Shown here: positions 10,401 to 63,091 of the stretch, piece after piece | Layout: every line of letters begins with the position of its first letter | Position numbering within the stretch: position 1 is the stretch's first letter | Source of the DNA: Protonemura montana | Lineage: Eukaryota > Arthropoda > Insecta > Plecoptera > Nemouridae | NCBI GenBank assembly: GCA_947568835.1 | Contig: OX387612.1 | Coordinates: forward strand, 989,001 to 1,053,000 | DNA: 64,000 nucleotides | Direction: 5' to 3' | Program-made: the position numbers and the translations under genes | Notes under the pieces: model-generated | Told to the model about the DNA's origin: nothing | What the model saw: the letters and a program-made list of their open reading frames with translations, nothing else | Database searches by the model: none

Positions 10401-13400
10401 GTATAACTTTTCAACCCTTTGAGTAAAAATATTTTAAAAAAATCACCTGGCCACATCCACATTCTCAACAAGAGAACCAATTTTCATCAAAATCTGAGTC
10501 AGTCAATGCTTATAATGAGTGATTTGACTTGGAACAACCCTTTGGCCTAACATAAGATATGTTATATATCTATAACATATATATCTTACATAAATATTAT
10601 ATATACAAGGTGATATATTGGTGTAATATTAGTTTTAATATTTTATACATATTAATTCAGATTTTTACTTTTCAGAGCATGAACGCCCGTCGCGACCCAA
10701 CAGACTTCAGCTCCTCGTGGGGGGCGGAGCCAGCGTGGAACGAAACGCAAGAACCCGATTGGCCAGCAGAGACAACCAACATCGAACCCGCGGCAATCGA
10801 ATCCACCGGCGCTGAATCGGAAGGAGACTTCGCTAAGTACCGAGCAATCTACGAGTTCGTTGCTAGGAACGGAGACGAGATTTCATTTCAACCCGGAGAT
10901 ATCGTCATGGTGAGTTGACAAGACTGGCCAATCCTTGGTGCTGTTGGACAGGAGCAGCCAACACAGTGTGTCAAAGTGACAAGGCTAAGCGGTGGCCGGT
11001 CCTTGGGGCTGTTGGACAGGAGCAGCCAACACAGTGTGTCAAAGTGGCAAGGCTAAGCGGTGGCTGGTCCTTGGTGCTGTTGGACAGGAGCAGCCAACAC
11101 AGTGTGTCAAAGTGACAAGGCTAAGCGGCGGCCGGTCCTTGGTGCTGTTGGACAGGAGCAGCCAACACAGTGTATCAAAGGGACAAGGCTAAGCGGTGGC
11201 CGGTCCTTGGTGCTGTTGTACAGAAGCAGCCAACACAGTGTGTCAAAGTGACAAGGCTAAGCGGTGGCCGGTCCTTGGTGCTGTTGGACAGGAGCAGCCA
11301 ACACAGTGTGTCAAAGTGACAAGGCTAAGCGGTGGCCGGTCCTTGGTGCTGTTGGACAGGAGCAGCCAACACAGTGTGTCAAGTGACAAGGCTAAGCGGT
11401 GGCCGGTCCTTGGTGCTGTTGGACAGGAGCAGCCAACACAGTGTGTCAAAGTGACAAGGCTAAGCGGTGGCCGGTCCTTGGTGCTGTTGGACAGGAGCAG
11501 CCAACACAGTGTGTCAAAGTGACAAGGCTAAGCAGTGGCCGGTCCTTGGTGCTGTTGTACAGGAGCAGCCAACACAGTGTGTCAAAGTGACAAGGCTAAG
11601 CGGTGGCCGGTCCTTGGTGCTGTTGGACAGGAGCAGCCAACACAGTGTGTAAAAGTGACAAGACTTAGTGGTGGCCGGTCCTTGGTGCTGTTGGACAGGA
11701 GCAGCCAACACAGTGTGTCAAAGTGACAAGGCTAAGCGGTGGCCGGTCCTTGGTGCTGTTGGACAGGAGCAGCCAACACAGTGTGTCAAAGTGACAAGGC
11801 TAAGCGGTGGCCGGTCCTTGGTGCTGTTGGACAGGAGCAGCCAACACAGTGTGTCAAAGTGACAAGGCTAAGCGGTGGCCGGTCCTTGGTGCTGTTGGAC
11901 AGGAGCAGCCAACACAGTGTGTCAAAGTGACAAGGCTAAGCGGTGGCCGGTCCTTGGGGCTGTTGGACAGGAGCAGCCAACACAGTGTGTCAAAGTGGCA
12001 AGGCTAAGCGGTGGCTGGTCCTTGGTGCTGTTGGACAGGAGCAGCCAACACAGTGTGTCAAAGTGACAAGGCTAAGCGGCGGCCGGTCCTTGGTGCTGTT
12101 GGACAGGAGCAGCCAACACAGTGTATCAAAGGGACAAGGCTAAGCGGTGGCCGGTCCTTGGTGCTGTTGTACAGAAGCAGCCAACACAGTGTGTCAAAGT
12201 GACAAGGCTAAGCGGTGGCCGGTCCTTGGTGCTGTTGGACAGGAGCAGCCAACACAGTGTGTCAAAGTGACAAGGCTAAGCGGTGGCCGGTCCTTGGTGC
12301 TGTTGGACAGGAGCAGCCAACACAGTGTGTCAAGTGACAAGGCTAAGCGGTGGCCGGTCCTTGGTGCTGTTGGACAGGAGCAGCCAACACAGTGTGTCAA
12401 AGTGACAAGGCTAAGCGGTGGCCGGTCCTTGGTGCTGTTGGACAGGAGCAGCCAACACAGTGTGTCAAAGTGACAAGGCTAAGCAGTGGCCGGTCCTTGG
12501 TGCTGTTGTACAGGAGCAGCCAACACAGTGTGTCAAAGTGACAAGGCTAAGCGGTGGCCGGTCCTTGGTGCTGTTGGACAGGAGCAGCCAACACAGTGTG
12601 TAAAAGTGACAAGACTTAGTGGTGGCCGGTCCTTGGTGCTGTTGGACAGGAGCAGCCAACACAGTGTGTCAAAGTGACAAGGCTAAGCGGTGGCCGGTCC
12701 TTGGTGCTGTTGGACAGGAGCAGCCAACACAGTGTGTCAAAGTGACAAGGCTAAGCGGTGGCCGGTCCTTGGTGCTGTTGGACAGGAGCAGCCAACACAG
12801 TGTGTCAAAGTGACAAGGCTAAGCGGTGGCCGGTCCTTGGTGCTGTTGGACAGGAGCAGCCAACACAGTGTGTCAAAGTGACAAGGCTAAGCGGTGGCCA
12901 ATCCTTGGTGCTGTTGCACAGGAGCAGCCAACACAGTGTGTCAAAGTGACAAGGCTAAGCGGTGGCCGGTCCTTGGTGCTGTTGGACAAAAGCAGCCAAC
13001 ACAGTGTGTCAAAGTGACAAGGCTAAGCGGTGGCCGGTCCTTGGTGCTGTTGGACAGGAGCAGCCAACACAGTGTGTCAAAGTGACAAGGCTAAGCAGTG
13101 GCCGGTCCTTGGTGCTGTTGTACAGGAGCAGCCAACACAGTGTGTCAAAGTGACAAGGCTAAGCGGTGGCCGGTCCTTGGTGCTGTTGGACAGGAGCAGC
13201 CAACACAGTGTGTCAAAGTGACAAGACTTAGCGGTGGCCGGTCCTTGGTGCTGTTGGACAGGAGCAGCCAACACAGTGTGTCAAAGTGACAAGGCTAAGC
13301 GGTGGCCGGTCCTTGGTGCTGTTGGACAGGAGCAGCCAACACAGTGTGTCAAAGTGACAAGGCTAAGCGGTGGCCGGTCCTTGGTGCTGTTGGACAGGAG

Positions 13401-16400
13401 CAGCCAACACAGTGTGTCAAAGTGACAAGGCTAAGCGGTGGCTGGTCCTTAGTGCTGTTGGACAGGAGCAGCCAACACAGTGTGTCAAAGTGACAAGGCT
13501 AAGCGGTGGCTGGTCCTTAGTGCTGTTGGACAGGAGCAGCCAACACAGTGTGTCAAAGTGACAAGGCTAAGCGGTGGCCAATCCTTGGTGCAGTTGGACA
13601 GGAGCAGCCAACACAGTGTGTCAAAGTGACAAGGCTAAGCGGTGGCCAATCCTTGGTGCAGTTGGACAGGAGCAGCCAACACAGTGTGTCAAAGTGACAA
13701 GGCTAAGCGGTGGCCGGTCCTTGGTGCTGTTGAACAGGAGCAGCCAACACAGTGTGTCAAAGTGACAAGGCTAAGCGGTGACCGGTCCTTGGTGCTGTTG
13801 GACAGGAGCAGCCAACACAGTGTGTCAAAGTGACAAGGCTAAACGGTGGCCGGTCCCTGGTGCTGTTGGACAGGAGCAGCCAACACAGTGTGTCAAAGGG
13901 ACAAGGCTAAGCGGTGGCCGGTCCTTGGTGCTGTTGGACAGGAGCAGCCAACACAGTGTGTCAAAGTGACAAGGCTAAGCGGTGGCCGGTCCTTGGTGCT
14001 GTTGGACAGGAGCAGCCAACACAGTGTGTCAAAGTGACAAGGCTAAGCGGTGGCCGGTCCTTGGTGCTGTTGAACAGGAGCAGCCAACACAGTGTGTCAA
14101 AGTGACAAGGCTAAGCGGTGACCGGTCCTTGGTGCTGTTGGACAGGAGCAGCCAACACAGTGTGTCAAAGTGACAAGGCTAAACGGTGGCCGGTCCCTGG
14201 TGCTGTTGGACAGGAGCAGCCAACACAGTGTGTCAAAGGGACAAGGCTAAGCGGTGGCCGGTCCTTGGTGCTGTTGGACAGGAGCAGCCAACACAGTGTG
14301 TCAAAGTGACAAGGCTAAGCGGTGGCCGGTCCTTGGTGCTGTTGGACAGGAGCAGCCAACACAGTGTGTCAAAGTGACAAGGCTAAGCGGTGGCCGGTCC
14401 TTGGTGCTGTTGGATAGGAGCAGCCAACACAGTGTGTCAAAGTAACAAGGCTAAGCAGTGGCTGGTCCTTGGTGCTGTTGGACAGGAGCAGCCAACACAG
14501 TGTGTCAAAGTGACAATGCTAAGCGGTGGCCGGTCCTTGGTGCTGTTGGACAGGAGCAGCCAACACAGTGTGTCAAAGTGACAAGGCTATGCGGCTAAGC
14601 GGTGGATGTTTCATGGCTATGTGCCGGCACCTGTTTAACCCTGCGCTCCCATCCAGGTTCCCCTGGTTCACAATGCTGAGCCCGGGTGGCTGGCCGGACA
14701 GATCCGGGGCCACACCGGCTGGTTTCCTGAGTCGTACGTGGAACCTGTCACGTCGCCCGGTGAAGCTGCCGAGTTCCCGGCAGACCTCGATGCTAAACGT
14801 CCGCTGGAGTGAGTTTTGTTTGCATTTGTAATGTCTCGACCAGTTTCATAGTCAACGTACAATAGAAGAAGCAATTATTGCCCGCACAAGAATTGTAAAA
14901 CTTGAAACTGTTTTGATTTCTATGAAATCTGATTTAAATTGCAATTTTTTGCAAAATGCAAAGTATTTTCTAAATAGCAACAATTAAATCTTCTCAAAAA
15001 TAATGTATCCAAGTAGTTTAATTAATCAAAGAAACACTTGCAACAGGTGATGTCAGGGTTTCAGTCCTTGCTTGGGGATCAGTTTTGAGAGGTTAGGTTA
15101 GGTTAGGTTAGGTTAGGTTAGGTTAGGTTAGGTTTAGATTTAAAGTTGTTGATGCTGACAGACCTTGGTCTTCCTGTGTTGCTTGTTCAGGGAGATCGCC
15201 GAAGTTCCGGAAACGCTCTCGGAAGGTTCCGTCGCGGAAACCGCGAGCGCCACCGGAACTCGTCTTGTGAACGAGATCGTTAAACGTGCGGAAAGCATCG
15301 CGGCTGGGGAAGATGCTCCGGCAGAAAACTACGGTAATTTTAACATAGGACAGACCATCTGTGTGCTAGATCTGTGTTAGTCAATTTTAACATAGGACAG
15401 ACCATCTGTGTGCTAGATCTGTGTTAGTCAATTTTAACATAGGACGGACCAACTGTGTGCTAGATCTGTGTTAGTCAATTTTAACATAGGACAGACCATC
15501 TTTGTGCTAGATCTGTGTTAGTCAATTTTAACATAGGACAGACCAACTGTGTGCTAGATCTGTGTTAGTCAATTTTAACATAGGACAGACCATCTGTGTG
15601 CTAGAACTATGTTAGTCAATTTTAACATAGGACGGACCATCTGTGTGCTAGATCTGTGTTAGTCAATTTTAACATAGGACAGACCAACTGTGTGCTAGAT
15701 CTGTGTTAGTCAATTTTAACATAGGACAGACCATCTGTGTGCTAGATCTGTGTTAGTCAATTTTAACATAGGACAGACCAACTGTGTGCTAGATCTCTGT
15801 TAGTCAATTTTAACATAGGACAGACCAACTGTGTGCTAGATCTGTGTTAGTCAATTTTAACATAGGACAGACCATCTGTATGCTAGATCTGTGTTAGTCA
15901 ATTTTAACATAGGACAGACCATCTGTGTGCTAGAACTATGTTAGTCAATTTTACCATAGGACAGACCATCTGTGTGCTAGATCTGTGTTAGTCAATTTTA
16001 ACATAGGACAGACCAACTGTGTGCTAGATCTGTGTTAGTCAATTTTAACATAGGACAGACCAACTGTATGCTAGATCTGTGTTAGTCAATTTTAACATAG
16101 GACAGACCATCTGTGTGCTAGATCTATGTTAGTCAATTTTAACATAGGACGGACCATCTGTGTGCTAGATCTGTGTTAGTCAATTTTAACATAGGACAGA
16201 CCAACTGTGTGCTAGATCTGTGTTAGTCAATTTTAACATAGGACAGACCATCTTTGTGCTAGATCTGTGTTAGTCAATTTTAACATAGGACAGACCATCT
16301 GTGTGCTAGATCTGTGTTAGTCAATTTTAACATAGGACCCACCATCTGTGTGCTAGATCTGTGTTAGTCAATTTTAACATAGGACAGACCATCTGTGTGC

Positions 16401-19400
16401 TTGATCTGTGTTAGTCAATTTTAACATAGGACAGACCAACTGTGTGCTATATCTGTGTTAGTCAATTTTAACATAGGACCCACCATCTGTGTGCTAGATC
16501 TGTGTTAGTCAATTTTAACATAGGACAGACCATCTGTGTGCTAGATCTGTGTTAGTCAATTTTAACATAGGACAGACCATCTGTGTGCTAGAACTATGTT
16601 AGTCAATATTAACATAGGACAGACCAACTGTGTGCTAGATCTGTGTTAGTCAATTTTAACATAGGACAGACCATCTGTGTGCTAGAACTATGTTAGTCAA
16701 TTTTAACATAGGACAGACCAACTGTGTGCTAGATCTGTGCTAGTCAATTTTAACATAGGACAGACCATCTGTGTGCTAGATCTGTGTTAGTCAATTTTAA
16801 CATAGGACAGACCATCTGTGTGCTAGATCTGTGTTAGTCAATTTTAACATAGGACAGACCATCTGTGTGCTAGATCTGTGTTGGTCAATTTTAACATAGG
16901 ACAGACCAACTGTGTGCTAGAACTATGTTAGTCAATTTTAACATAGGACAGACCATCTGTGTGCTAGATCTGTGTTAGTCAATTTTAACATAGGACAGAC
17001 CATCTGTGTGCTAGATCTGTGTTAGTCAATTTTAACATAGGACAGACCATCTGTGTGCTAGATCTGTGTTAGTCAATTTTAACATAGGACAGACCATCTG
17101 TGTGCTAGATCTGTGTTAGTCAATTTTAACATAGGACAGACCATCTGTGTGCTAGATCTGTGTTGGTCAATTTTAACATAGGACAGACCAACTGTGTGCT
17201 AGAACTATGTTAGTCAATTTTAACATAGGACAGACCATCTGTGTGCTAGATCTGTGTTAGTCAATTTTAACATAGGACAGACCATCTGTGTGCTAGATCT
17301 GTGTTAGTCAATTTTAACATAGGACAGACCATCTGTGTGCTAGATCTGTGTTAGTCAATTTTAACATAGGACAGACCATCTGTGTGCTAGATCTGTGTTA
17401 GTCAATTTTAACATAGGACAGACCATCTTTGTGCTAGATCTGTGTTAGTCAATTTTAACATAGGACAGACCAACTGTGTGCTGGATCTGTGTTAGTCAAT
17501 TTTAACATAGGACAGACCATCTGTGTGCTGGATCTGTGTTAGTCAATTTTAACATAGGACAGACCAACTGTGTGCTAGATCTGTGTTAGTCAATTTTAAC
17601 ATAGGACAGACCATCTGTGTGCTAGATCTGTGTTAGTCAATTTTAACATAGGACGGACCAACTGTGTGCTAGATCTGTGTTGGTCAATTTTAACATAGGA
17701 CAGACCATCTGTGTGCTAGATCTGTGTTAGTCAATTTTAACTTAGGACAGACCAACTGTGTGCTAGATCTGTGTTAGTCAATTTTAACTTAGGACAGACC
17801 AACTGATGATTCTCAACTAAACATGTTTTGTTTCAGGCAACTACGTAGCTCTGTACCCGTACGCCTCGCCCGAGGTCGGTGACCTCAGTTTTGGCCAATC
17901 AGAGGTGATCGTTGTTGTGAAGAAGGAAGGTGATTGGTGGACTGGAGTCATCGGGGACCGGCAAGGAATCTTCCCGTCTAACTACGTTCAGCCGGTTCCT
18001 GAAGAGGTTAGTTTTCTGCGGTCCTGGCACCAGGTTTACTCTTGGCTGCCTGTTAGGCTAGGATTGCTTGAGAAGATTTATTATGAACCTATTTCAATGT
18101 CTGGGTTTGGTTCATGAAGTTTGAATGGAACGGAGGAGAGAAGAATGAATGCAACGTAGATGAAGTTTATAAGAAGTATTGAAGGGGTGACCAAGTTTGG
18201 ACAAGATTAAAAGCAAAATATTGAGATAGATAACAAGAGATTTGGTTTTACAATTGGGAAAGAAAGATTGAAATTGTTTGAATTAATGATGAGACCTAAT
18301 TATCATATATATAATATATAATAATGACTTGTGAACTTGGCTTTCTGAGATGTGTTCACTCTCGTGACTTACCTGTTGCTTCTGGCTTAGACTTCGGTGG
18401 AGGACATGAAACCTGTCGCTGTCGTTGAAGCTGTCGCAGTTGAAACTGCATTTGAACCGGCTTTCGAACTCAAGACAGGTTTTAAAGAAGAGATCGCCGT
18501 TGTGTCCAGCGAGCCGGTGAGTTTGATAATAGCTGCAGAGTTCACTCCTTGTTACTGACTTTTAACCTCTTACATGTTGATTGACTCATGTCTACTTGAT
18601 ATAAACTTAGCACTAGTTTTAACAAAAACTATTTCAACTGGGTTTTCAATGCTAAGTGAAGAACAACTAAATTTCCCTATAAGTGTAATATGTAATTACC
18701 TATATATATATATATTGATTAGCGCGGCTAACGGTCGATTAGCGTAGCTAACGGGTTGATTAGCTTGGCTAACGGTCGATTAGCGTAGCTAACGGTTGAT
18801 TAGCGTAGCTAACGGTTGATTAGCGTGGCTAACGGTTGATTAGCTTGGCTAACGGTTGATTAACTTGGCTAACGGTCGATTAGCTTGGCTAACGGTCGAT
18901 TAGCTTGGCTAACGGTCGATTAGCTTGGCTAACAGTTGATTAGCTTGGCTAACGGTTGATTAGCGTGGCTAACGGTTGATAAGCTTGGCTAAGGGTTGAT
19001 TAGCTTGGCTAACGGTTGATTAGTTTGGATAACGGTTGATTAGCATGGCTAACGGTTGATTAACTTAGCTAACGGTCGATTAACTTGGCTAACGGTTGAT
19101 TAACTTGGCTAACGGTTGATTAACTTGGCTAATGGTTGATTAACTTGGCTAACGGTTGATTAACTTGGCTAACGGTTGATTAACTTGGCTAATGGTTGAT
19201 TAGCTTGGCTAACGGTTGATTAACTTGGCTAACGGTTGATTAACTTGGCTAACGGTCGATTAACTTGGCTAACGGTTGATTAACTTGGCTGACGGGTTGT
19301 TTTTCTTCAGGCTGCAATCATCAAGTCACCGGTTACCCCTGACTTTGCTGCGATGTCTGCCTCAACGATGGTAATAAACAAACTCTCTTTATTTTGCCAC

Positions 19401-22400
19401 ATTTTGTCTCGCACTATCAGCTGTCACTGTGCGTTTCACAGAAATTCATAACTCTACGATAGTAATACCTAGATGATCATAATTAAATTACCTCATTCCT
19501 TATTATTATTATTATTATCATTAAAGTATAAAAAAGTCAACAAATCCAACGTCAAATTGGAGTTATTTGAGTTTGACAGGTTGTTACGTGATATAGCGTC
19601 ACTAGAATCAGAGTGACTGTGAGTATTCACAGCCTCTTGGTTCTACTCCTTGGAGATCTGTCATTCTCATCAAATACTTTGAAATTGTCTCAAAAAGAAT
19701 GTGTCAAAGTAGCTCAATTGGTTAGAGCAACACCCGCGACAGGTGGAGATCAGGGTCCAAGTAGCTCAATTGGTTAGAGCAACACCGTGGTAACATAAGA
19801 TAGCAGAATTGAGAAGCTCTGTCAGGCGATCTCAGCATCTCCATGGCTACCAAACGTTGAATCTACCATTGAACCTCCTATGCTAGGCCATGATATACCC
19901 ATGGTAACATAAGATAGCAGAATTGAGAAGCTCTGACAGGCGATCTCAGCATCTCCATGGCGATCTCAGCATCTCCATTACTACCAAACGTTGAATCTAC
20001 CATTGAACCTCCTATGCTAGGCCATGATATACCCGTGGTAACATAAGATAGCAGAATTGAGAAGCACTGTCAGGCGATCTCAGCATCTCCATGGCCACCA
20101 AACGTTGAATCTACCATTGAACCTGCTATGCTAGGCCATGATATACCCGTGGTAACATAAGATAGCAGAATTGAGAAGCTCTGTCAGGTGATCTCAGCAT
20201 CTCCATGGCTACCAAACGTTGAATCTACCATTGAACCTCCTATGCTAGGCCATGATATACCCGTGGTAACATAAGATAGCAGAATTGAGAAGCTCTGTCA
20301 GGTGATCTCAGCATCTCCATGGCTACCAAACGTTGAATCTAACATTGAACCTCCTATGCTAGGCCATGATATACCCGTGGTAACATAAGATAGCAGAATT
20401 GAGAAGCTCTGTCAGGCGATCTCAACATCTCCATGGCTACCAAACGTTGAATCTACCATTGAACCTCCTATGCTAGGCCATGATATACCCGTGGTAACAT
20501 AAGATAGCAGAATTGAGAAGCTCTGTCAGGCGATCTCAGCATCTCAATGGCTACCAAACGTTGAATCTACCATTGAACCTCCTATGCAAGGCCATGATAT
20601 ACCCGTGGTAACATAAGATAGCAGAATTGAGAAGCTCTGTCAGGCGATCTCAGCATCTCCATGGCTACCAAACGTTGAATCTACCATTGAACCTCCTATG
20701 CTAGGCCATGATATACCCGTGGTAACATAAGATAGCAGAATTGAGAAGCTCAGTCAGGCGATCTCAGCATCTCCATGGCTACCAAACGTTGAATCTACCA
20801 TTGAACCTCCTATGCTAGGCCTGATATACCCGTCGTAACATAACATAGCAGAATTGAGAAGCTCTGACAGGCGATCTCAGCATCTCCATGGCTACCAAAC
20901 GTTGAATCTACCATTGAACCTCCTATGCTAGGCCATGATATACCCGTGGTAACATAAGATAGCAGAATTGAGAAGCTCAGTCAGGCGATCTCAGCATCTC
21001 CATGGCTACCAAACGTTGAATCTACCATTGAACCTCCTATGCTAGGCCTGATATACCCGTCGTAACATAACATAGCAGAATTGAGAAGCTCTGACAGGCG
21101 ATCTCAGCATCTCCATGGCTACCAAACGTTGAATCTACCATTGAACCTCCTATGCTAGGCCATGATATACCCGTGGTAACATAAGATAGCAGAATTGAGA
21201 AGCTCTGTCAGGTGATCTCAGCATCTCCATGGCTACCAAACGTTGAATCTAACATTGAACCTCCTATGCTAGGCCATGATATACCCGTGGTAACATAAGA
21301 TAGCAGAATTGAGAAGCTCTGTCAGGCGATCTCAACATCTCCATGGCTACCAAACGTTGAATCTACCATTGAACCTCCTATGCTAGGCCATGATATACCC
21401 GTGGTAACATAAGATAGCAGAATTGAGAAGCTCTGTCAGGCGATCTCAGCATCTCAATGGCTACCAAACGTTGAATCTACCATTGAACCTCCTATGCAAG
21501 GCCATGATATACCCGTGGTAACATAAGATAGCAGAATTGAGAAGCTCTGTCAGGCGATCTCAGCATCTCCATGGCTACCAAACGTTGAATCTACCATTGA
21601 ACCTCCTATGCTAGGCCATGATATACCCGTGGTTACATAAGATAGCAGAATTGAGAAGCTCTGTCAGGCGATCTCAGCATCTCCATGGCTACTAAACGTT
21701 GAATCTACCATTGAACCTCCTATGCTAGGCCATGATATACCCGTGGTAACATAAGATAGCAGAATTGAGAAGCTCTGTCAGGCGATCTCAACATCTCCAT
21801 GGCTACCAAACGTTGAATCTACCATTGAACCTCCTATGCTAGGCCATGATATACCCGTGGTAACATAAGATAGCAGAATTGAGAAGCTCTGTCAGGCAAC
21901 CTCAGCATCTCCATGGCTACCAAACGTTGAATCTACCATTGAACCTCCTCTGCTAGGCCATGATATACCCGTGGTAACATAAGATAGCAGAATTGAGAAA
22001 CTCTGTCAGGTGATCTCAGCATCTCCATGGCTACCAAACGTTGAATCTACCATTGAACCTCCTATGCTAGGCCAAGATATACCCGTGGTAACATAAGATA
22101 GCAGAATTGAGAAGCTCTGTCAGGCGATCTCAGCATCTCCATGGCTACCCAACGTTGAATCTATCATTGAACCTCCTATGCTAGGCCATGATATACCCGT
22201 GGTAACATAAGATAGCAGAATTGAGAAGCTCTGTCAGACGATCTCAGCATCTACATGGCTACCAAACGTTGAATCTACCATTGAACCTCCTATGCTAGGC
22301 CATGATATACCCGTGGTAACATAAGATAGCAGAATTGAGAAGCTCTGTCAGGCGATCTCAGCATCTCCATGGCTACCAAACGTTGAATCTACCATTGAAC

Positions 22401-25400
22401 CTCCTATGCTAGGCCATGATATACCCGTGGTAACATAAGATAGCAGAATTGAGAAGCTCTGTCAGGCGATCTCAGCATCTCCATGGCTACCAAACGTTGA
22501 ATCTACCATTGAACCTCCTATGCTAGGCCATGATATACCCATGGTAACATAAGATAGCAGAATTGAGAAGCTCTGTCAGGTGATCTCAGCACCTCCATGG
22601 CTACCAAACGTTGAATCTACCATTGAACCTACTATGCTAGGCCATGATATACCCGTGGTAACATAAGATAGCAGAATTGAGAAGCTCTGTCAGGCGATCT
22701 CAGCATCTCCATGGCTACCAAACGTTGAATCTACCATTGAACCTCCTATGCTAGGCCATGATATACCCGTGGTAACATAAGATAGCAGAATTGAGAAGCT
22801 CTGTCAGGCGATCTCAGCATCTCCATGGCTACCAAACGCTGAATCAACCATTGAACCTTCTATGCTAGGCTATAATATACCCGTGGTAACATAAGATAGC
22901 AGAATTGAGAAGCTCTGTCAGGCGATCTCAGCATCTCCATGGCTACCAAACGTTGAATCTACCATTGAACCTCCTATGCTAGGCCATGATATACCCGTGG
23001 TAACATAAGATAGCAGAATTGAGAAGCTCTGTCAGGTGATCTCAGCATCTCCATGGCTACCAAACGTTGAATCTAACATTGAACTTCTATGACACTTGGC
23101 GCTAACTTGTCTTTGTTTGTTCTAAAAAATGCTGCCACTTTTAGGGAAATAACACCGATTTCTTTCACTCACCCCAGGTACCTTGATATAATCGTGTTGG
23201 TCACACTGTTGTTAGCATGTAATGCACAATGCACCGTAATAGACGATCACGTAGTGGGCATGTAGCCAAAGCATGGAGCATCAGTGGGAAGTATATATGT
23301 TCAACTAAAGAGCATCAGTGGGAAGTATATATGTTCAACTACAGAGCATCAGTGGGAAGTATATATGTTCAACTAAAGAGCATCAGTGGGAAGTATATAT
23401 GTTCAACTACAGAGCATCAGTGGGAAGTATATATGTTCAACTACAGAGCATCAGTGGGAAGTATATATGTTCAACTACAGAGCATCAGTGGGAAGTATAT
23501 ATGTTCAACTACAGAGCATCAGTGGGAAGTATATATGTTCAACTAAAGAGCATCAGTGGGAAGTATATATGTTCAACTACAGAGCATCAGTGGGAAGTAT
23601 ATATGTTCAACTACAGAGCATCAGTGGGAAGTATATATGTTCAACTACAGAGCATCAGTGGGAAGTATATATGTTCAACTACAGAGCATCAGTGGGAAGT
23701 ATATATGTTCAACTACAGAGCATCAGTGGGAAGTATATATGTTCAACTACAGAGCATCAGTGGGAAGTATATATGTTCAACTACAGAGCATCAGTGGGAA
23801 GTATATATGTTCAACTACAGAGCATCAGTGGGAAGTATATATGTTCAACTACAGAGCATCAGTGGGAAGTATATATGTTCAACTACAGAGCATCAGTGGG
23901 AAGTATATATGTTCAACTACAGAGCATCAGTGGGAAGTATATATGTTCAACTACAGAGCATCAGTGGGAAGTATATATGTTCAACTACAGAGCATCAGAG
24001 GGATGTATATATGTTCAACTACAGAGCATCAGTGGGAAGTATATATGTTCAACTACAGAGCATCAGTGGGAAGTATATATGTTCAACTACAGAGCATCAG
24101 TGGGAAGTATATATGTTCAACTACAGAGCATCAGTGGGAAGTATATATGTTCAACTACAGAGCATCAGTGGGAAGTATATATGTTCAACTACAGAGCATC
24201 AGAGGGAAGTATATATGTTCAACTACAGAGCATCAGTGGGAAGTATATATGTTCAACTACAGAGCATCAGTGGGAAGTATATATGTTCAACTACAGAGCA
24301 TCAGTGGGAAGTATATATGTTCAACTACAGAGCATCAGTGGGAAGTATATATGTTCAACTACAGAGCATCAGTGGGAAGTATATATGTTCAACTACAGAG
24401 CATCAGTGGAAAGTATAAAAAAAAATAATGTGGAAAGAAAATACAATTATGTTAGTTTAAAAGGAATTTAATATGCTTTCAAATTCTACTGGAAAGTTTC
24501 TTTGTCCCATAAGCAGTTTCTGGCCGACTTTTCCTCGGATGCATCCAAGATTTGAATTTTTGGTTTGTCTCAATATTTTTTCTTAAAAGAAGTGATCAGT
24601 TCCAGATGAAACCGGTTTGAAATAGAAGATTTTTGTTTATGGATGGGTCTTGTGGATGTTTGATGTACGATCTTACAACAGCTGATCTTGTGTAATCAGT
24701 GAAATCGGTTTAGATTGGAAAATTGCAAACTCATTCGCGATGCTGTCTCTGATTCATGATAACCTAACCAGACAACGCAGGGAAGTTTCAGTTCAAAGCT
24801 TGTCTTGTACTTCACTTTACTAACATCAAGCCAAACTTGCTTTTCACTCAGCGTTGAGGTAAAACTCACATTTTTAACTTTTTAATATTTTTACATTTTT
24901 ACAAGACGATTATTTCACATTTGCTAAAAAAAAAAAAATTAAATCATATTTAAATTGCAAACGCTTGCAATGCACGGGGTATTTTATTCTTGTAAGCACT
25001 ATAAACGTTTGAAAAATTGATGCCCAAACGGGGATCAATTTTTGAAACGTTTATAGTGTTCATAATAATAAAATATATATATTTATGTAAAAATGAGGCA
25101 TTTATTCAAGTGGGCACTAATCTGGTGTAGCAGTCAATATTTGTGCTCTGCACTTCTCGTCGTTTAGCTTTTAACCCAGTGTTTCAGATTGTTGGAAAAT
25201 CAGTTTGACTTAAAAACAAAGTTGATCTCGATGTCAGTGAAATTGGGTGTCAAGAGTTGAATGATTTGGTGAAACGGAAGTCTTGCGGCTTGTTAAAGTG
25301 TGGTTATCGTTGTCTGCAGGGCAAGGGACGGAAGCCGGAGATTGCGACTGTTATTGCTCCGTACCAAGCTTCCAGCTCCGAGCAACTGAGCCTGTCTCGA

Positions 25401-28400
25401 GGTCAGCTGGTCATGATTAGGAAGAAGACCAGCACGGGTTGGTGGGAGGGGGAACTCCAAGCCAAGGGGCGCAAGAAACAGGTGAGTCAAGCTAACTATA
25501 CACTTCAACAATACTTCAATATAGCTGTTGTTTCTTTAATTTTTAAGTTCTTGTAGGGTTTTTTTTTTAGTTTTCAAAGGTTGCCATGTGAGCTTGGGAG
25601 TCAATTCAAGTCCAGGGTTTCTCACTCAAATCTCAAGCAAATTCACTACAAAAAATCTCTCGGTTCTCAAACTTTCACCCCAGTTAAACTTTTGCCAACA
25701 AATCTGGGTTCCACCGGCCGCAGCTTTACAATTGAAATAACGGGCAGATATGTAACCTTATGATGGGAGTTGACAGTTTAAACATTTCCTTCAAGTAATC
25801 TTCATTTTTTAAGCCTTGTGCTTTCTAAATTTTGTTAAAAAATGCAATTTTGGGGCTTCATTTTGGCGAGTGAAAAAAATCCCTTTTCATACGAAAGAAA
25901 TAGTTAAGATCAAGTTCAATGTAATGTGTAAAACAAGCGCCGTTTCTAGAATTCTAACCTGAACTGTACGACCGCATGTTTTCATCATGCTAGGATATCG
26001 GATGCTAGGATATCATGTTAGGATATAGAAGGTTAGTCAGAGTTTAAACTTGCTTCATGTCTTATGATTGGTTGCCAGGTCGGTTGGTTCAATTGTTTAG
26101 ATTATAGAAGGTTAGTCAGAGTTTAAACTTGCTTCATGTTTTATGATTGATCCCCAGGTCGGTTGGTTCAACTGTTAGAATTATAGAAGGTTAGTCAGAG
26201 TTTAAACTAGCTTCATGTCTTATGATTGATCCCCAGGTCGGTTGGTTCAACTGTTAGGATTATAGAAGGTTAGTCAGAGTTTAAACTTGCTTCATGTTTT
26301 ATGATTGATCCCCAGGTCGGTTGGTTCAATTGTTTAGATTATAGAAGGTTAGTCAGAGTTTAAACTAGCTTCATGTTTTATGATTGATCCCCAGGTCGGT
26401 TGGTTCAATTGTTTAGATTATAGAAGGTTAGTCAGAGTTTAAACTAGCTTCATGTTTTATGATTGGTCCCCAGGTCGGTTGGTTCAATTGTTTAGATTAT
26501 AGAAGGTTAGTCAGAGTTTAAACTAGCTTCATGTTTTATGATTGATCCCCAGGTCGGTTGGTTCAATTGTTTAGATTATAGAAGGTTAGTCAGAGTTTAA
26601 ACTAGCTTCATGTTTTATGATTGGTCCCCAGGTCGGTTGGTTCAATTGTTTAGATTATAGAAGGTTAGTCAGAGTTTAAACTAGCTTCATGTTTTATGAT
26701 TGATCCCCAGGTCGGTTGGTTCAATTGTTACGATTATAGAAGGTTAGTCAGAGTTTAAACTTGCTTCATGTTTTATGATTGATCCCCAGGTCGGTTGGTT
26801 CAATTGTTTAGATTATAGAAGGTTAGTCAGAGTTTAAACTAGCTTCATGTTTTATGATTGGTCCCCAGGTCGGTTGGTTCAATTGTTTAGATTATAGAAG
26901 GTTAGTCAGAGTTTAAACTAGCTTCATGTTTTATGATTGATCCCCAGGTCGGTTGGTTCAATTGTTACGATTATAGAAGGTTAGTCAGAGTTTAAACTAG
27001 CTTCATGTTTTATGATTGATCCGCAGGTCGGTTGGTTCAATTGTTTAGATTATAGAAGGTTAGTCAGAGTTTAAACTTGCTTCATGTTTTATGATTGATC
27101 CCCAGGTCGGTTGGTTCAATTGTTTAGATTATAGAAGGTTAGTCAGAGTTTAAACTAGCTTCATGTTTTATGATTGATCCCCAGGTCGGTTGGTTCAATT
27201 GTTTAGATTATAGAAGGTTAGTCAGAGTTTAAACTAGCTTCATGTTTTATGATTGATCCCCAGGTCGGTTGGTTCAATTGTTACGATTATAGAAGGTTAG
27301 TCAGAGTTTAAACTAGCTTCATGTTTTATGATTGATCCCCAGGTCGGTTGGTTCAATTGTTTAGATTATAGAAGGTTAGTCAGAGTTTAAACTAGCTTCA
27401 TGTTTTATGATTGGTCCGCAGGTCGGTTGGTTCCCAGCGACTTACGTCAAGCTGATGGTGAGCGGAAGGAACACACCGACTTCAATGGAGATGACAAACC
27501 GCTGCGTAACTCCAGAGTTCAGCAACCCTGGTAAGTCAATCTTTCTGCGTTGTTTCAGTCAATCTTTCTGCGTTGTTTCAGTCAATATCTGCAGAGATTC
27601 GGGCACATTTTGCAATTTTTAAAATAAAAATGAAACAAATTGGTAATGATTGTTTTTATAACGACTCATGTCTACTTTATCTAACAAAAGCTATTTTAAC
27701 TGGGTTTTGAATGCCAAGCAAAGAACAACCAAATTTCCCTTAAAAAATCAGTTCAAAAAGTTTTTGTTATAAATGTTGGTTCATTACAGGAGTCAAATAT
27801 GCATGAATTTGTACATATTACATTCATGGAATTGCTCATGATTTAAATTGAAAATAATGTATTTGCAAGTTGTGTGTTTGCTCTTCAGACAAGAGCTGGG
27901 CCAACAATTGGTCAGAGCAACATCTGTGACAACTGGAGTTGGATACATTAAGACATTGAATTAAGTTAGTCACTGTTGCCAACCTCTCTGTTTTGTTTTG
28001 TCCGACAGAGAAAGTGGTCGCCCTGTTTCCGTACACGGCTCTGAACTCGGACGAGCTGAGCTTTGAGAAGGACGATGTGATCCTGGTCCTGGCTCGAGAA
28101 GAGGAAGCTTGGTGGCGTGGGGAGATAGACGGCCGCTCGGGACTCTTCCCGTCCAACTACGTGGCCGCCATGTGTGAGTAGACGCTGACTAAAGTTGGGT
28201 TAGGGGTGTGCGGAAGTGAGGTTAAGGGGCTTGGTCAGAGTGGATAGCGGTTGTCATGGAGAGACTTATGTTTTTGTATTTTATTTGGTCAATAGTGCAT
28301 TGGAATGAGTAGACCACGTCAGTTTTTATATAAACATAAACATATAGGTACTTGAAGCTACGGTCGCCATCTTGAGAGTCACTGATTTTGTGTTTTCGTT

Positions 28401-37400: not shown

Positions 37401-40400
37401 CATGAAATTCAGAATTCTGCATTTGATGGGAAGTTGTCGTGGCAATTATCAACTAACAACTCGATAGAAAGGAGTTGAGAAAGCTTTAAAAGTAGGTAAT
37501 GTTTACTTTACAAAAACCTAATAAGTTAAAAGCACAAAGCTTTGCAATGCCAGACTCTTTCATCCTGATTGAAGAGACGGTTATAAAGTTTTATATCCTG
37601 TGTTCAGATCCTGGAACTGACAGATGAGAATCATCCTGACAGACAGAACCTGCAGGAAGCACTGAGTAAAGCCGAGGAGTTCTGCGTTCAGGTGCGTGAT
37701 GCTTATTTAATCCTCGGAGGCTGATGAGACTGAACTCATTTGTCCGTTTGTATTTCTTTATCACCATTTAGTGGACTTGACAAAAAGTTGCATCCGTATG
37801 AGTGAGATTAATAAGTAATTATGGTTCATCGATCAATATTTGTTACAAAATCTAAACCCGATTATTAGTGATTATTGAAGGTAGTTGTGGACCCTCTTCC
37901 ACATTCACGTCGAAGCATTTCGAGTTAAGTTAAAAATGGTAAAGTCGGTGTAAAGTTTAAGTTAAATGTAAGAAATTGTGATGTGATAAGATGTAAGCAA
38001 TGATATTATTGTAACCAAGCTGAAGAGCGGCATTTAATAATTAACAAAATAACAAATAAATTTAATTGAGTTGCGTTGTGTGCAGGTGAACGAGGGTGTT
38101 CGTGAGAAGGAGAACTCAGAACGGTTGGAATGGCTGCAGCATCACGTGGTCAGCGAGAATCTACCCGAGCAGATTGTGTTCAACTCCGTAACCAACGCTG
38201 TTGGACCTCGCAAGTTCCTTCATCACGGCGTTCTTAGGAAGGTAGGCAACTTAAATTGAGATCAGCTGACTCGATCCTAGCCTCTATCCAGGTTATTAGA
38301 GATCAGCTGGCTGGATCCTATGCTCTATCCAGGTTATTTGAGATCAGCTGGCTGGATCATATGCTCTATCCAGGTTATTTGAGATCAGCTTGCTGGATCA
38401 TATGCTCTATCCATGTTATTTGAGATCAGCTGGCTGGATCCTATGCTCTATCCAGGTTATTAGAGATCAGCTGGCTGGGTCCTATGCTCTATCCAGGTTA
38501 TTTGAGATCAATTGTCTGGATCCTATGCTCTATCCAGGTTATTTGAGATCAGCTGGCTGGATCCTATGCTCTATCCAGGTTATTAGAGATCAGCTGGCTG
38601 GGTCCTATGCTCTATCCATGTTATTTGAGATCAGCTGGCTGGATCCTATGCTCTAGCCAGGTTATTTGAGCTCAGCTGGCTGGATCCTATGCTCTATCCA
38701 GGTTATTTGAGATCAATTGTCTGGATCCTATGCTCTATCCAGGTTATTTGAGATCAGCTGGCTGGATCCTATGCTCTATCCAGGTTATTAGAGATCAGCT
38801 GGCTGGGTCCTATGCTCTATCCAGGTTATTTGAGATCAGCTGGCTGGATCCTATGCTCTACTCAGATTATTTTAGATCAGCTGGCTGGATCCTATGCTCT
38901 ATCCAGGTTATTTGAGATCAGCTGGCTGGATCCTATGTTCTATCCAGGTTATTTGAGATCAACTGGTTTGATTCTATACTCTATCCAGGTTATTTGAGAT
39001 CAGCTGGCTGGATCCTATGCTCTATCCAGGTTATTAGAGATCAGCTGGCTGGATCCTATGCTCTATTCAGGTTATTTGAGATCAGCTGGCTGGATCCTAG
39101 CCTCTATCCAGGTTATTAGAGATCAGCTGGCTGGATCCTATGCTCTATCCAGGTTATTTGAGATCAGCTGGCTGGATCCTATGTTCTATGCAGGTTATTT
39201 GAGATCAACTGGCTGGATCCTATGTTCTATGCAGGTTATTTGAGATCAGCTGGCTGGATCCTATGCTCTATCCAGGTTATTTGAGATCAGCTGGCTAGAT
39301 CCTATGCTTTATCCAGATTATTTGAGATCAGCTGGCTGGATCCTATGCTCTATCCAGGTTATTTGAGATCAGCTGGCTGGATCCTATGCTCTATGCAGGT
39401 TATTTGAGATCAGCTGGCTGGATCCTATGCTCTTTCCAGGTTATTTGAGATGAGCTGGCTGGATTCTATGCTGGTTTTTAACTTCCTTGTCTTGTGTATC
39501 CAGGCTAAGAGTGGTAAGGAACTCGTCTGCTTCCTGTTGAACGACTTCCTGTTGTTGACTGTGCCGAGCAAGCCGCTGCCGCCGACGCACTCGTTCCTGT
39601 TCGATCGTAAATCGCAGGCCACCTGTCGCGTCTACAAGCGAGTGAGTTCAACAAATAAATATGTTTTATTTGTGCATTCTTTTTTATTAAAGAACTTTAC
39701 AACTGGATTTTTGAATGCTAAGTAAAAGTCACTTAATAACTTAAGGTTTTGATTGGTTTTTGGGATGGACGTTGATTTAATTTGTTAAAAACGCCAATTT
39801 TTCGGGGAGATTTTGTATTAAAAAATATGCAAAATATTGAAGTGGTTTTCATATTTGACTTTGGTTGTTATGGTTACATGCATGAATTATTCCTGGACAA
39901 TTTGATTCTTGTTATTATTCTGTTATCAAAGAATTGTCACCACTGACTTTACTCATGATAAGTTGGCAGAACTGAGTTTATTTCTTTCTTTTCTGAGCAA
40001 TAAAAAAACCAGTTTATTTAAAATATTTTTTTCCTGTTTCCTGCTGTTGCCATGACGTCCCTTCAAGCCTTGTTTTGTTATGTTTAAACGTTATGTTTGT
40101 TCTTCAAGCCTCTGCTGCTAAATCAGCTGACCGTATTGAAAGACTCTGCAGACTCGGCCGGTGAATCTCTGCGTCTCTTCGACTCTGGTTCTCGGTTGAC
40201 CTTGAACTTCGTGGCTCCCTCGGCTGCGGAGCGAACACTTTGGTCGAAACGAATTGAAGCGGCAGCCGTTGAGCTGTTGGACATGGAGAAAAGTAGGATT
40301 CAAAGACAACAGTCAAGTGAGTCCCGTCATTGTTCTATCAATAGGAACACTTACATAATCTCACTTATATAATACTTACATAACCTCACAAAAGTTGATG

Positions 40401-43400
40401 CCCAAACGGGGACTTGAACCCCGAACTCCACCTGTCGCGGGTGTAGCTCTAACCAATTAAACTACTTGGACCCCGATCTCCACCTGTCGCAGGTGTTGCT
40501 CTAACCAATTGAGCTACTTGGACCCCGATCTCCACCTGTCGCGGGTGTTGCTCTAATCAATTGAGCTACTTGGACCCCGATCTCCACCTGTCACGGGTGT
40601 TGCTCTAACCAATTGAGCTACTTGGACCCCGATCTCCACCTGTCGCGGGTGTTGCTCTAACCAATTGAGCTACTTGGACCCCGATCTCCACCTGTCACGG
40701 GTGTTGCTCTAATCAATTGAGCTACTTGGACCCCGATCTCCACCTGTCACGGGTGTTGCTCTAACCAATTGAGCTACTTGGACCCCGATCTCCACCTGTC
40801 ACGGGTGTTGCTCTAACCAATTGAGCTACTTGGACCCCGATCTCCACCTGTCACAAGTGTTGCTCTAACCAATTGAGCTACTTGGACCCCGATCTCCACC
40901 TGTCACGGGTGTTGCTCTAACCAATTGAGCTACTTGGACCCCGATCTCCACCTGTCGCGGGTGTTGTTCTAACCAATTGAGCTACTTTGGCCCCGATCTC
41001 CACCTGTCGCGGGTGTGCTCAAACCAATTGAGCTACTTGGACCCCGATCTCCACCTGTCGCGAGTGTTGCTCTAACCAATTGAGCTACTTGGACCCCGAT
41101 CTCCACCTGTCGCGGGTGTGCTATAACCAATTGAGCTACTTGGACCCCGATCTCCACCTGTCGCGAGTGTTGCTCTAACCAATTGAGCTACTTGGACCCC
41201 GATCTCCACCTGTCGCGGTGTTGCTCTAACCAATTGAGCTACTTGGACCCCGATCTCCACCTGTCGCGGTGTTGCTCTAACCAATTGAGCTACTTGGACC
41301 CCGATCTCCACCTGTCGCGGGTGTTGTTCTAACCAATTGAGCTACTTGGACCCCGATCTCCACCTGTCACGGGTGTTGCTCTAACCAATTGAGCTACTTG
41401 GACCCCGATCTCCACCTGTCACGGGTGTTGCTCTAGCCAATTGAGCTACTTGGACCCCGATCTCCACCTGTCGCGGGTGTGCTCAAACCAATTGAGCTAC
41501 TTGGACCCCGATCTCCACCTGTCGCGAGTGTTGCTCTAACCAATTGAGCTACTTGGACCCCGATCTCCACCTTTCGCGGGTGTGCTCTAACCAATTGAGC
41601 TACTTGGACCCCGATCTCCACCTGTCGCGAGTGTTGCTCTAACCAATTGAGCTACTTGGACCCCGATCTCCACCTGTCGCGGTGTTGCTCTAACCAATTG
41701 AGCTACTTGGACCCCGATCTCCACCTGTCACAGGTGTTGTTCTAACCAATTGAGCTACTTGGACCCCGATCTCCACCTGTCGCGAGTGTTGCTCTAACCA
41801 ATTGAGCTACTTGGACCCTGGCTTTTCGAATGACAGTTCTCCAAGGAGTAGAACCAAGAGGCTGTGAATACTCACAGTCACTCTGATTCTAGTAACGCTT
41901 TATCACGTCACAACCTGTCAAACTCGGATAACTCCAATTTGACATTGGATTCGTTGCTGTATTAGGATGAAATCTGATTTAAATTTCAAACGTTAGCAAT
42001 GCGAGGGGTATTTTTGTCATATGGTTTTTGTTAGAGTTTTCATGTCCTATCTCGGGAGCGAATTGGAATTTGAAATTTGTTTTTGAAGAGTAAAGCAGAA
42101 TTTTTGACTTCTTTTAACCTAGAAATAAGTAACTTGACTGATATATTGACTTAATTTTGCGCTCTGTTGGGCAATGCTGGCTTTGATTGAACATTACAGT
42201 GTTGCCAGCTGTTTGGCATTTTAACACAATTGTTGTTGATTTGTTTTGTCGTGTTTCCCTCGCTTGTTTACAGAGCAAGCGCAGTTCGGTGCTTGCGGCC
42301 GGGTCCTCGTGTTGGTAGCAGTTGGCGTTGGACTCAGGCCTGCCAACGGTGAGAGCATTGCTGCCAACTTAGCATGCTTTGCTTGCTTGCACTCGAACTT
42401 TCTTCCAGTTTTGCTGATCTAGAAGGCGGTGGCTGTTCTTCGATGATATCTTTTATCGGTGGCGTTGTTTTGTTGAAAAAGCATTTCATGATTCTTACAT
42501 TCTTATTGCAAATCAAACTTTTGTGGACAAATTTAATATTTTTAATATTCTTTAATATCTTTATCATTTCACCTCCTCCCTTCTAGGCTAGGTTAGGTTC
42601 ATCATCATCCACTCATCGCCCGACTCCATTAGACCAATGCCACTTTGGTCCGTTGTTAAAACATTGCAGAAATCGTCTTCCATATGAATTACCACAAAAA
42701 AAAAATTTTTTTTGTTAAGAAGCAAACTTACTGAACAAAAATTGCAAAATAATGTTGGTCTAAAACTTTTCAATTTCTCTGTAATTTGGTGCTTGTGTTG
42801 GTAGACTGCAAAGAATGTTCTGGATCATGAAATGCTTCGTACTCTAATAACACCGACCCTTGCATGACCCGTACTTACGCTAGTCGCATGTTAAACATCG
42901 CTTCAATCGCATGCTTTAGTTCGACATCGTAAACCCAGGGGACGGCTCCGAGTCAAACTGATCTCGGCCGCAGAAATACAATATCGTCGTCGGAAGAACG
43001 GTGAGAACATAACCTAAAACATGTTGTCATGGCGATGATGGTAAACATAACCTCAAATGTGGTGGGTTTTTTCACAATGTACAACCAATGAGTCGATTTA
43101 TCTACAGTCCTTTTCGAACCTAACAGTTCGTTAGTTTGTTATTTGCTCGGCGACGGCCGATCAGAAGGTGTTTTTCGTTTGTTAACAGTCGGTTAGTGAC
43201 TTAACGGACTTCAGTTTCATTTTTAGCTCGAGATCGCACTGCTCCTGTAAGTGCACTCAAAACGTAGAACTTAGAGAAAATAAAAGCAGAACAAAGAACA
43301 TTCCTGATTATCATTATGTAATACCACCGTTACTTAATTGTACAATTGTAAGAGAAACTTAAATAATAAATAAAATAAATACCCTAGCCAATAAATGGGC

Positions 43401-46165: not shown

Positions 46166-47205
46166 TCTCTGTACACCTACTTCATGATGCTACCGTCGTA
46201 GGTAGCACCGCCAAATGACCGCTCTAGGTCGGGGTTATATAATATCACCGGTCGTATTATGTAGCACCATGGTAGCACCGCCAAATGACCGCTCTAGGTC
46301 GGGGTTATATAATACCACCGGTCGTATTATGTAGCACCATGGTAGCACCGCCAAATGACCGCTCTAGGTCGGGGTTATATAATACCACCGGTCGCATTAT
46401 GTAGCATCATGGTAGCACTGCCAAATGACCGCTCTAGGTCGGGGTTCTATAATACCACCGGTCGTATTATGTAGCCCCATGGTAGCACCGCCAAATGACT
46501 GCTCTAGGTCAGGATTATATAATACCACCGGTCGTATTATGTAGCACCATGGTAGCACCGCCAAATGACCACTCTAGGTCGTGGTTCTATAATACCACCG
46601 GTCGTATTATGTAGCCCCATGGTAGCACCGCCAAATGACTGCTCTAGGTCAGGATTATATAATACCACCGGTCGTATTATGTAGCACCATGGTAGCACCG
46701 CCAAATGACCGCTCTAGGTCGGGGTTATATAATACCACCGGTCGTATTATGTAGCACCATGGTAGCACCGCCAAATGACCACTCTAGGTCGTGGTTCTAT
46801 AATACCACCGGTCGTATTATGTAGCCCCATGGTAGCACCGCCAAATGACTGCTCTAGGTCAGGATTATATAATACCACCGGTCGTATTATGTAGCACCAT
46901 GGTAGCACCGCCAAATGACCGCTCTAGGTCGGGGTTATATAATACCACCGGTTGTATTATGTAGCACCATGGTAGCACCACCAAATGACTGCTCGAGGTC
47001 GGGGTTATATAATACCACCGGTCGTATTATGTAGCACCATGGTAGCACCGCCAAATGACCGCTCTAGGTCGGGGTTATATAATACCACCAGTCGTATTAT
47101 ATAGCACCATGGTAGCACCACCAAATGACCGCTCTAGGTCGGTGTTATATAATACCACCAGTCGTATTATGTAGCACCATGGTAGCACCGCCAAATGACT
47201 GCTTT
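46166..47205. repeat. 70-bp minisatellite, about 14 copies
   Basis: Units contain catggtagcaccgccaaatg, gctctaggtcggggtt and accaccggtcgtattatg. It begins just after the presumed polyadenylation site of ITSN. Alternating variants (cgtggttct, caggattat) point to multi-unit duplication. Confidence 0.95.
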
Positions 47206-47469: not shown

Positions 47470-47700
47470 CTGGTCAAATGGCGTCGGTCATTTAGTGGGG
47501 GATAATGAACCTGACCTAGCCTCAAAGAGAGGAAAAGAAACCGGATGCCGGCACGTAGCCTACTCATGTCTAAGACCAAGGGGACCACCGGCTTAACATC
47601 CCTTTCGAAGGACGGTACAACGTGAACAATAGGATTCCTCCACAAATCCATGCTGTCGAGAGGTTGATAAGCAAGGCGAGTGAAGTTGCTGTACAAAATT
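47470..47700 (-). mobile_element. 3' part of a 5S-like element
   Basis: On the minus strand this follows the 5S-like array and reads through cttggtcttagacatgag, gtaggctacgtgccggc and gaggctaggtcaggttc. A diverged second copy of its end is at 42588-42660, so it is an interspersed repeat, probably the body of a 5S-rRNA-derived SINE. Confidence 0.5.
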
Positions 47701-48186
47701 TCATCCCTCCAACCTCTCTCCCAAACAGAACTGGTCATGTGTATGATAGTCACCCATCCAATACCTGACCCAGCGCAGTGTTGCTTAACTTTCTTCCCTC
47801 CAACCTCTCTCCCGAACAGAACTGGTCATGTGTATAATGGTCACCCATCTAATACCTGACCCAGCGCAATGTTGCTCAACTTTCATCCCTCCAACCTCTC
47901 TCCCAAACAGAACTGGTCATGTGTATGATGGTCACACATCCAATACCTGACCCAGCGCAGTGTTGCTTAACTTTTTTCCCTCCAATCTCTCTCCCGAACA
48001 GAACTGGTCATGTGTATAATGGTCACCCATCCAATACCTGACACAGCGCAGTGTTGCTTAACTTTCATCCCTCCAACCTCTCTCCCGAACAGAACTGGTC
48101 ATGTGTATGATGGTCACCCATCCAATACCTGACCCAGCGCAATGTTGCTCAACTTTCATCCCACCAACCTCTCTCCTGAACAGAAC
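47700..48186 (-). repeat. 91-bp 5S rRNA-like tandem array, about 5 copies
   Basis: On the minus strand each unit contains aagttaagcaacactgcg and ggtattggatgggtgacc, which resemble box A and box C of the 5S rRNA internal promoter (AGTTAAGC and TACTTGGATGGGTGACC). The rest of each unit is unlike 5S rRNA, so these are not rRNA genes but appear to be copies of a 5S-derived SINE head. Confidence 0.65.
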
Positions 48187-60571: not shown

Positions 60572-60575
60572 GGGA
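50935..60575. repeat. 60-bp satellite, about 160 copies, open on both strands
   Basis: Units contain tgcttggtgctatggtgg, tgctagttagcacgg and ctgacagtaataccaggg at exactly 60-bp spacing with no indels across 9.6 kb. Since 60 is a multiple of 3, one frame on each strand stays open: + gives 20-residue hydrophobic repeats (LLGAMVVLVSTVLLTVIP), minus gives Ser/Thr/Pro repeats (TSTTIAPSSDPGITVSS). Variants recur in multi-unit blocks, for example ctaggg plus tattgtgg at 54051, 54231, 54591, 54771, 55131 and 55491, and the block near 58561 recurs 1320 bp later. Confidence 0.97.
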
Positions 60576-61733: not shown

Positions 61734-61844
61734 GTGGATCATCGACTTGTTCCGGAAAGGCCGGAAGCGAGATCTAGGCGTCGAGGACTTGTACAATGTA
61801 CTTCCGGTGGACCAGTCCAGCGCCCTCTGTGATAGACTCGAGCG
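61734..61844 (+). CDS. ABCC4: ABCC4/MRP4-like transporter, N-terminal exon
   Basis: The acceptor is tcgcccgccag and the donor GTAAGC at 61845. It encodes WIIDLFRKGRKRDLGVEDL then YNVLPVDQSSAL, which parallels the [20 protein letters not shown] and YSVLPEDRS segment near the N-terminus of ABCC4. ABCC4 is a plasma-membrane ATP-driven exporter of organic anions and cyclic nucleotides; other short ABCC proteins share this segment, so the subfamily number is the likely rather than certain call. The exon starts with the third base of a codon, so at least one coding exon lies upstream; I could not identify it. Confidence 0.82.
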
Positions 61845-61924
61845 GTAAGCAAAGAAACACGAGGACAAAGATTGAGCCAATACCAGATCAGGTTAGCTTC
61901 ATCATCAGCCAATCAGAAACAAGA

Positions 61925-63052: not shown

Positions 63053-63091
63053 CTGCGTGCTGGCACCGGGATCACCCTAAATCTCTTACAG

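Follow-up and report, generated by a model that had tools for sequence, protein, structure and literature searches.

A 79-bp minisatellite spanning an intron-exon border repeats the splice acceptor of an intersectin SH3 exon

One intron of an intersectin gene carries a row of splice acceptors at 79-bp steps, the last of which opens an exon encoding part of an SH3 domain. How could such a row have arisen, and what would lead the spliceosome to its last member? We addressed these questions in a window of 64,000 nucleotides, the whole stretch of DNA analysed here, together with searches of the surrounding genome. Because a single intron here offers 18 acceptors and a working protein apparently requires the last of them, the locus lends itself unusually well to a natural test of how splice sites are chosen.

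Results

The gene that hosts the array was recognised as an intersectin by four SH3 matches on the + strand within the 64-kb window, by the Pfam SH3 and EH domains found in it, and by the best solved-structure matches of its protein, which are intersectin-1 and intersectin-2. Open frames, splice signals and the known domain order served to build, by hand, a gene model comprising 23 exons and 22 introns with both ends placed. Exon n (25320..25481, + strand), placed by its open frame, splice signals and an SH3 match, encodes the first part of an SH3 domain and is followed at 25482 by the donor AAACAG/gtgagt, whose score of 12.5 is the highest among the 25 donors scored. Exon o (27422..27530, + strand; 109 nt) ends at a gtaagt donor at 27531, and exon p (28009..28173, + strand) matches SH3 and encodes the next SH3 domain of intersectin. 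TRF also detected a 23-bp repeat of 2.3 perfect copies (27534..27586, + strand), which begins at the fourth base of the intron after exon o. When exons n and o were joined at 27422, their product aligned with the intersectin-1 SH3 domain 6gbu (i-Evalue 2.8e-25) in an ungapped alignment that spans the n/o junction, where the 6gbu side reads KRQ-IGWFPANYVKL. Since the joined exons align without a gap, the acceptor at 27422 gives the conserved protein, and the predicted start of exon o is fixed at 27422 by the SH3 alignment across the junction.

The array itself is a 79-bp minisatellite of 17.8 copies with 96% matches, delimited by TRF at 26024..27433 (+ strand). Its final 12 bases are coding, and the first 12 bases of exon o are part of the repeat unit. 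On its + strand the window contains GTCGGTTGGTTC 18 times, always directly after an AG: one copy lies at 27422, and the others fill 17 of 17 positions that precede it at exact steps of 79 bp (26079 to 27343). All 12 coding bases are kept in the 17 decoys. According to the copy table and site scores, the first decoy pseudo-exon lies at 26079..26110 (+ strand; 32 nt), with its acceptor at 26079 and a donor-like site after 26110, and the last before the true acceptor at 27343..27374 (+ strand). The further decoy copies start, on the same strand, at 26158, 26237, 26316, 26395, 26474, 26553, 26632, 26711, 26790, 26869, 26948, 27027, 27106, 27185 and 27264. Immediately upstream of the junction, the 11-base sequence is ttgatccccag in 12 of the 17 decoys and ttggtccccag in three, the remaining two having ttggttgccag (26079) and ttgatccgcag (27027); the true acceptor at 27422 reads ttggtccgcag. 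Copies at exact 79-bp steps with such identity cannot be a product of chance. These results bear out the first-pass annotation of this DNA on the ends and period of the array, on a unit ending in an acceptor and the first 12 coding bases of exon o, on the 17 upstream copies, on the wording of the true and the commonest decoy site, on a single decoy near 27025 sharing ccgcag (located at 27027), and on the exon n donor and the start of exon o.

Over the 18 copies, 16 of the 79 columns vary, a number that falls to eight when the 5' edge copy is set aside. This edge copy is the most diverged, with 12 differences from the consensus; the other decoys have 0-5 and the 3' edge copy, which contains the true site, has two. 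None of the 12 coding columns is variable, an outcome with a chance of 0.05 when the 5' edge copy is included and 0.25 when it is not. The constancy of these coding columns is therefore not significant, and is no good evidence of selection on the decoys.

The first-pass annotation had treated the decoys as copies of an acceptor, which is correct for the acceptors but incomplete, as each unit also carries a donor-like site, AAG/gttagt, 32 nt after each decoy acceptor. The sequence AAGGTTAGT is intact in 18 of 18 copies of the array; the first donor-like site (26029..26037, + strand) precedes the first decoy acceptor and recurs every 79 bp. Its score of 8.7, obtained with a weight matrix built from the 25 donors in the window (mean 7.45), exceeds that of 14 of these 25 real donors. 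Among 2,964 non-donor GTs in the first 44 kb, 25 (0.84%) score as high, and 18 of them must be the array's own copies. The same gttagt serves a real donor of the gene, GAG/gttagt (exon ending at 18006; score 6.1). With an acceptor and a strong donor-like site in every unit, the decoys form pseudo-exons of 32 nt, 111 nt and longer; in general, the array offers a lattice of potential pseudo-exons whose lengths follow 32 + 79m nt. Both ends of the 111-nt pseudo-exons are usable, and transcripts are expected to leak into decoys to some extent, because the donor-like site outscores 14 of 25 donors and gttagt is used by a real one.

We then modelled the products of decoy use, all 986 of which contain a stop, whereas the canonical joining of exons n, o and p has none. 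In all 17 of the read-throughs from a decoy, a stop appears 6 or 15 codons past exon n. The 15 codons stated in the first-pass annotation apply to 15 decoys, which give one peptide in 12 cases and a second form in three, and the other two stop earlier, after 6 codons (VGWFNC-stop). With a single pseudo-exon placed ahead of exons o and p, 153 of 153 combinations run into a stop after 6 to 21 codons; pairs of 32-nt mini-exons do so within 57 codons (136/136) and triples within 30 codons (680/680). Because every decoy product stops and the canonical joining does not, the spliceosome would have to use the last copy to make the whole SH3 domain, in line with the earlier proposal that the splicing machinery must choose the last site.

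As the 18 acceptors have nearly identical local sequence, the information that discriminates between them must lie outside the acceptor. The true acceptor scores 7.9 and the decoys 6.0-10.0, next to a mean of 7.2 (standard deviation 4.7) for 26 other acceptors, two of which belong to the next gene and were placed by eye. Four of the 17 decoys outscore the true acceptor, which rules out acceptor strength as the discriminator. An AG outside the repeat, at 25571 (score 8.9), also outscores the true site, which shows how coarsely the weight matrix discriminates when used by itself.

By contrast, the composition of the exon body separates the true site from the decoys. Measured by 4-mer log-odds, a composition score in which codon content is a confounder, all 23 of the real exons range from 0.11 to 1.04, with exon o at 0.61, and the 111-nt pseudo-exon, at -0.84, falls inside the distribution of 311 intron windows (mean -0.94, maximum 0.12). 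The two ranges touch, as the lowest real exon (0.105, 60 nt) lies just under the highest intron window (0.119). GC content is 0.54 in exon o and 0.36-0.38 in the pseudo-exons, the lowest of the 23 real exons having 0.47. Furthermore, the 32-nt pseudo-exon is shorter than the shortest of the 23 model exons (60 nt), and the 47-nt gap from its end to the next acceptor is shorter than the shortest of the 22 model introns (239 nt). Because the exon body separates the true site and acceptor strength does not, the best-supported rule of choice, we infer, is exon definition that relies on the gtaagt donor at 27531.

To place the array in its setting, we compared it with other sequences. A whole-genome DNA search with the array region returned three matches, all at this locus, although absence elsewhere is no proof of rarity, and the 79-bp unit matched none of 43 other arrays compared. 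An origin of the array from a dispersed repeat was rejected on these two grounds. According to TRF, minisatellites make up 56% of the window; among the arrays in the 22 introns of the gene model, the 79-bp array is the one that crosses a border. A survey of SH3 sequences beyond the gene gave 12 matches in 8 of 20 loci, with no border crossed, a weak test in which the domain core alone was compared.

The variants of the true site were also traced through the array. Its G at -8 recurs in the decoys at 26079, 26474, 26632 and 26869 and its G at -4 in the decoy at 27027, whereas the nearest neighbour, the decoy at 27343, has neither. Because these variants scatter among the decoys but miss 27343, they suggest that the working acceptor may have exchanged sequence with its own decoys and shares in the turnover of the array.

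Discussion

We propose, with a probability of roughly 0.7, that the array is a minisatellite of the type called 'mirage' in lancelets, which would have started from a tandem duplication spanning the intron-exon border, grown, and left the choice of the last copy to exon definition. Local tandem duplication over the border and subsequent expansion make the simplest history, and the most likely one, because the unit itself spans the border, and a local birth fits because the region was matched genome-wide in this array alone. To this extent the origin suggested by the first-pass annotation stands, as the simplest one consistent with the sequence. The duplicated segment would have comprised the end of the intron (a putative branch-point zone, the pyrimidine tract and AG) together with 12 bases from the start of the exon that follows. 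Unequal exchange or slippage may then have produced growth and homogenisation to about 18 copies, while the outermost 3' copy would have stayed the working acceptor of the intersectin SH3 exon. This last copy would most likely be picked by exon definition, since its acceptor adjoins an exon-like body and a strong gtaagt donor; the decoys would be passed over, the next donor-like site giving an exon that is too short (32 nt) or, at 111 nt or more, intron-like.

Border-spanning minisatellites named mirages are described for lancelet Adh3, the globin genes BflGb6 and BflGb9, troponin C and PGBD5 in PMC3087553 and PMC3902484, the latter adding the PGBD5 and troponin C cases. The intersectin array shares with them a tandem repeat across the border, the repetition of splice signals and part of an exon, and concerted turnover. 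It ends 12 nt inside exon o and thus spans the exon-intron boundary, and its copies carry AG and GT signals (AG in 17 of 17 decoys; AAGGTTAGT in 18 of 18 copies). Closest is BflGb6, for which exactly the same arrangement is described (PMC3087553, PMC3902484), with the 3' end of the intron and the 5' part of the exon repeated. The units measure 150-160 bp in BflGb6, 157 bp in BflGb9 and 10-72 bp in Adh3, compared with 79 bp here, and two BflGb6 haplotypes have 6 and 3 copies, compared with 18. Every unit here holds an acceptor and a high-scoring donor, whereas for lancelets the published account assigns AG/GT signals to many of the copies but not to all of them. The edge pattern of mirages, a homogenised interior with excluded edges, agrees at the 5' edge (12 differences) but not at the 3' edge, which has two differences and shares variants with the decoys; that the 3' edge copy is undiverged, unlike the 5' one, counts against the mirage reading.

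The host differs too, as the gene here is intersectin and the genome is arthropod-like by mitochondrial gene order, not that of a cephalochordate, the group in which the name was coined; the host is not a mechanistic part of the definition. The mitochondrial contig, C34, has cox1-cox2-atp6-cox3-nad3, cob and a weak nad6 (below the Pfam cut-off) on one strand and nad4 on the other, an order that we take to be the arthropod and not the lancelet pattern. The intersectin array thus joins the border-spanning minisatellites already published and is not unprecedented. A literature search found no report of such a minisatellite in intersectin or in arthropods, but its queries did not contain the name intersectin and absence is no proof. 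Since the papers found describe them in lancelets, the array suggests that border-spanning minisatellites occur in a distant animal lineage as well.

Two other systems offer partial parallels. In the human IFI6 minisatellite, the units carry a splice donor and two downstream units are used, giving three mRNAs, according to PMC4526556; as in the intersectin array, the units carry a splice site, but IFI6 repeats a donor instead of an acceptor, and its copies are actually used. Intron gain by tandem duplication, treated in PMC4974935 and argued for in PMC3087553, likewise involves duplication over or near splice signals. It differs in that no new intron or exon is evident here; this could be a later step.

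Could the decoys have a function of their own? A fraction of transcripts might enter them, stop early and be degraded, so that copy number would set the output of functional intersectin. Seventeen decoy acceptors scoring around the true site, 18 strong donor-like sites and a stop in every modelled product (17/17, 153/153, 136/136, 680/680) speak for such a rheostat, and copy-number-dependent unproductive splicing is possible on these models. We nevertheless regard it as unlikely, because the pseudo-exon body is intron-like, the published lancelet mirages left splicing undisturbed (PMC3087553, PMC3902484; regular splicing being what RT-PCR suggests in PMC3087553), and there is no sign of selection keeping the decoys (chance 0.25 or 0.05). 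A heritable form, in which the copy number of a lattice of similarly strong sites would set how frequently intersectin transcripts end up in stop-bearing pseudo-exons, is a shade less likely; if true, a fast-mutating minisatellite near a chromosome end would tune the dosage of a conserved endocytic scaffold.

Silencing by RNA structure, with each decoy acceptor paired to the pseudo-exon and donor of its own unit and the true site lacking a partner, appears improbable as the main mechanism. Predicted openness of the pyrimidine tract has a median of 0.010 in decoys, below 25 of the 26 other acceptors (median 0.078), and is 0.053 at the true site; in the branch-point zone it is 0.13 in decoys, 0.30 in other acceptors and 0.27 at the true site, and minimum-energy folds show long decoy hairpins. 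However, the hairpins of the four decoys tested gain no stability over dinucleotide shuffles (z -0.74 to +0.45), decoys have the more open AG (0.48 vs 0.12), donor openness hardly differs and the mean openness of the true site lies under all 26 other acceptors; moreover, 17 decoys that are copies amount to nearly one observation. Hairpin masking was rejected as the main mechanism because shuffled sequence folds no worse than the hairpins and because the AG shows the opposite trend in openness, and RNA structure may at best be a helper in the choice of the last copy. Most improbable is an artefact of assembly or sequence, a collapsed or expanded repeat, given that 16 of 79 columns vary among the copies, that many arrays of similar copy identity lie elsewhere in the window and that 1.4 kb is short for modern long reads. 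In its favour, one lancelet mirage appears wrongly assembled in a draft genome, according to PMC3087553.

If the array is indeed a mirage-type minisatellite read by exon definition, the discriminating information is to be sought in the exon body, the downstream donor or the order of transcription, and the scatter of variants suggests that a working splice site can exchange them with its own decoys.

Additional observations

Four introns of the window, 4886-6771, 10910-14656, 15334-17836 and 38242-39503, consist almost wholly of minisatellite (41-, 47-, 68- and 73-bp arrays): what is left comes down to 2-15 nt following the donor and 31-62 nt ahead of the acceptor, which gives a natural gauge of the least unique sequence that an intron can do with. 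Comparison of 21 arrays from the window identified relatives for 10 of them, either at another locus or at a second place in the window. Besides a 41-bp family, those in dispersed families lie at 1517-2216, 10925-14594, 15336-17805, 19788-23091, 46201-47203, 47699-48186, 50934-60573 and 61931-63050. At other loci or at further places in the window, units of 49, 68, 47, 114, 70 and 91 bp reappear with 88-100% identity and in either orientation, and a 60-bp unit with 81%. The pattern looks like minisatellites that move as units instead of being products of local growth alone. Units of 52 and 70 bp (40412-41818 and 49505-50346) resemble tRNA-derived sequence, with tRNA box motifs spotted by eye on their reverse strand; a SINE or a tRNA may have given rise to both minisatellites.

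Frames at 61735-63240, downstream of intersectin, look by eye like ABC transporter exons; two short frames near 61.7-63.2 kb had no match in Pfam, one of the query sequences being inexact. In the nuclear genome, COX1 copies lie on contig C4 at 5760925-5762262 and 5776811-5777755, one scoring the same as the mitochondrial COX1 of C34, and would represent either a recent mitochondrial insertion or an inclusion in the assembly.

The 41-bp family occurs in the window at 38256-39472 and 63395-64000 and at loci L011, L013 and L032, with consensuses 100% identical over 62-80 bp between the loci on contig C11, those on contig C15 and the window. A genome search gave 681 candidates, of which 40 were scored. 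Among these best-scored candidates, 33 of 33 distinct places on seven contigs lie at most 4.1 Mb from a contig end (11.7 expected), and 28 of the 33 at most 3 Mb; the count took in these seven contigs and left out the places on C5 and C14. Contig C15 looks rich in minisatellites, which occupy 11,425 of 50,000 bases in eight loci (L013, L016 and L029-L034), compared with 2,068 of 180,000 in 18 loci on other contigs, where six of the eight were picked by position and the other two, like all 18, by SH3 matches. Of the C15 total, 5,000 bases belong to L029 (C15:300000-304999), the entire 5 kb of which is a single 30-bp array of 166 copies.
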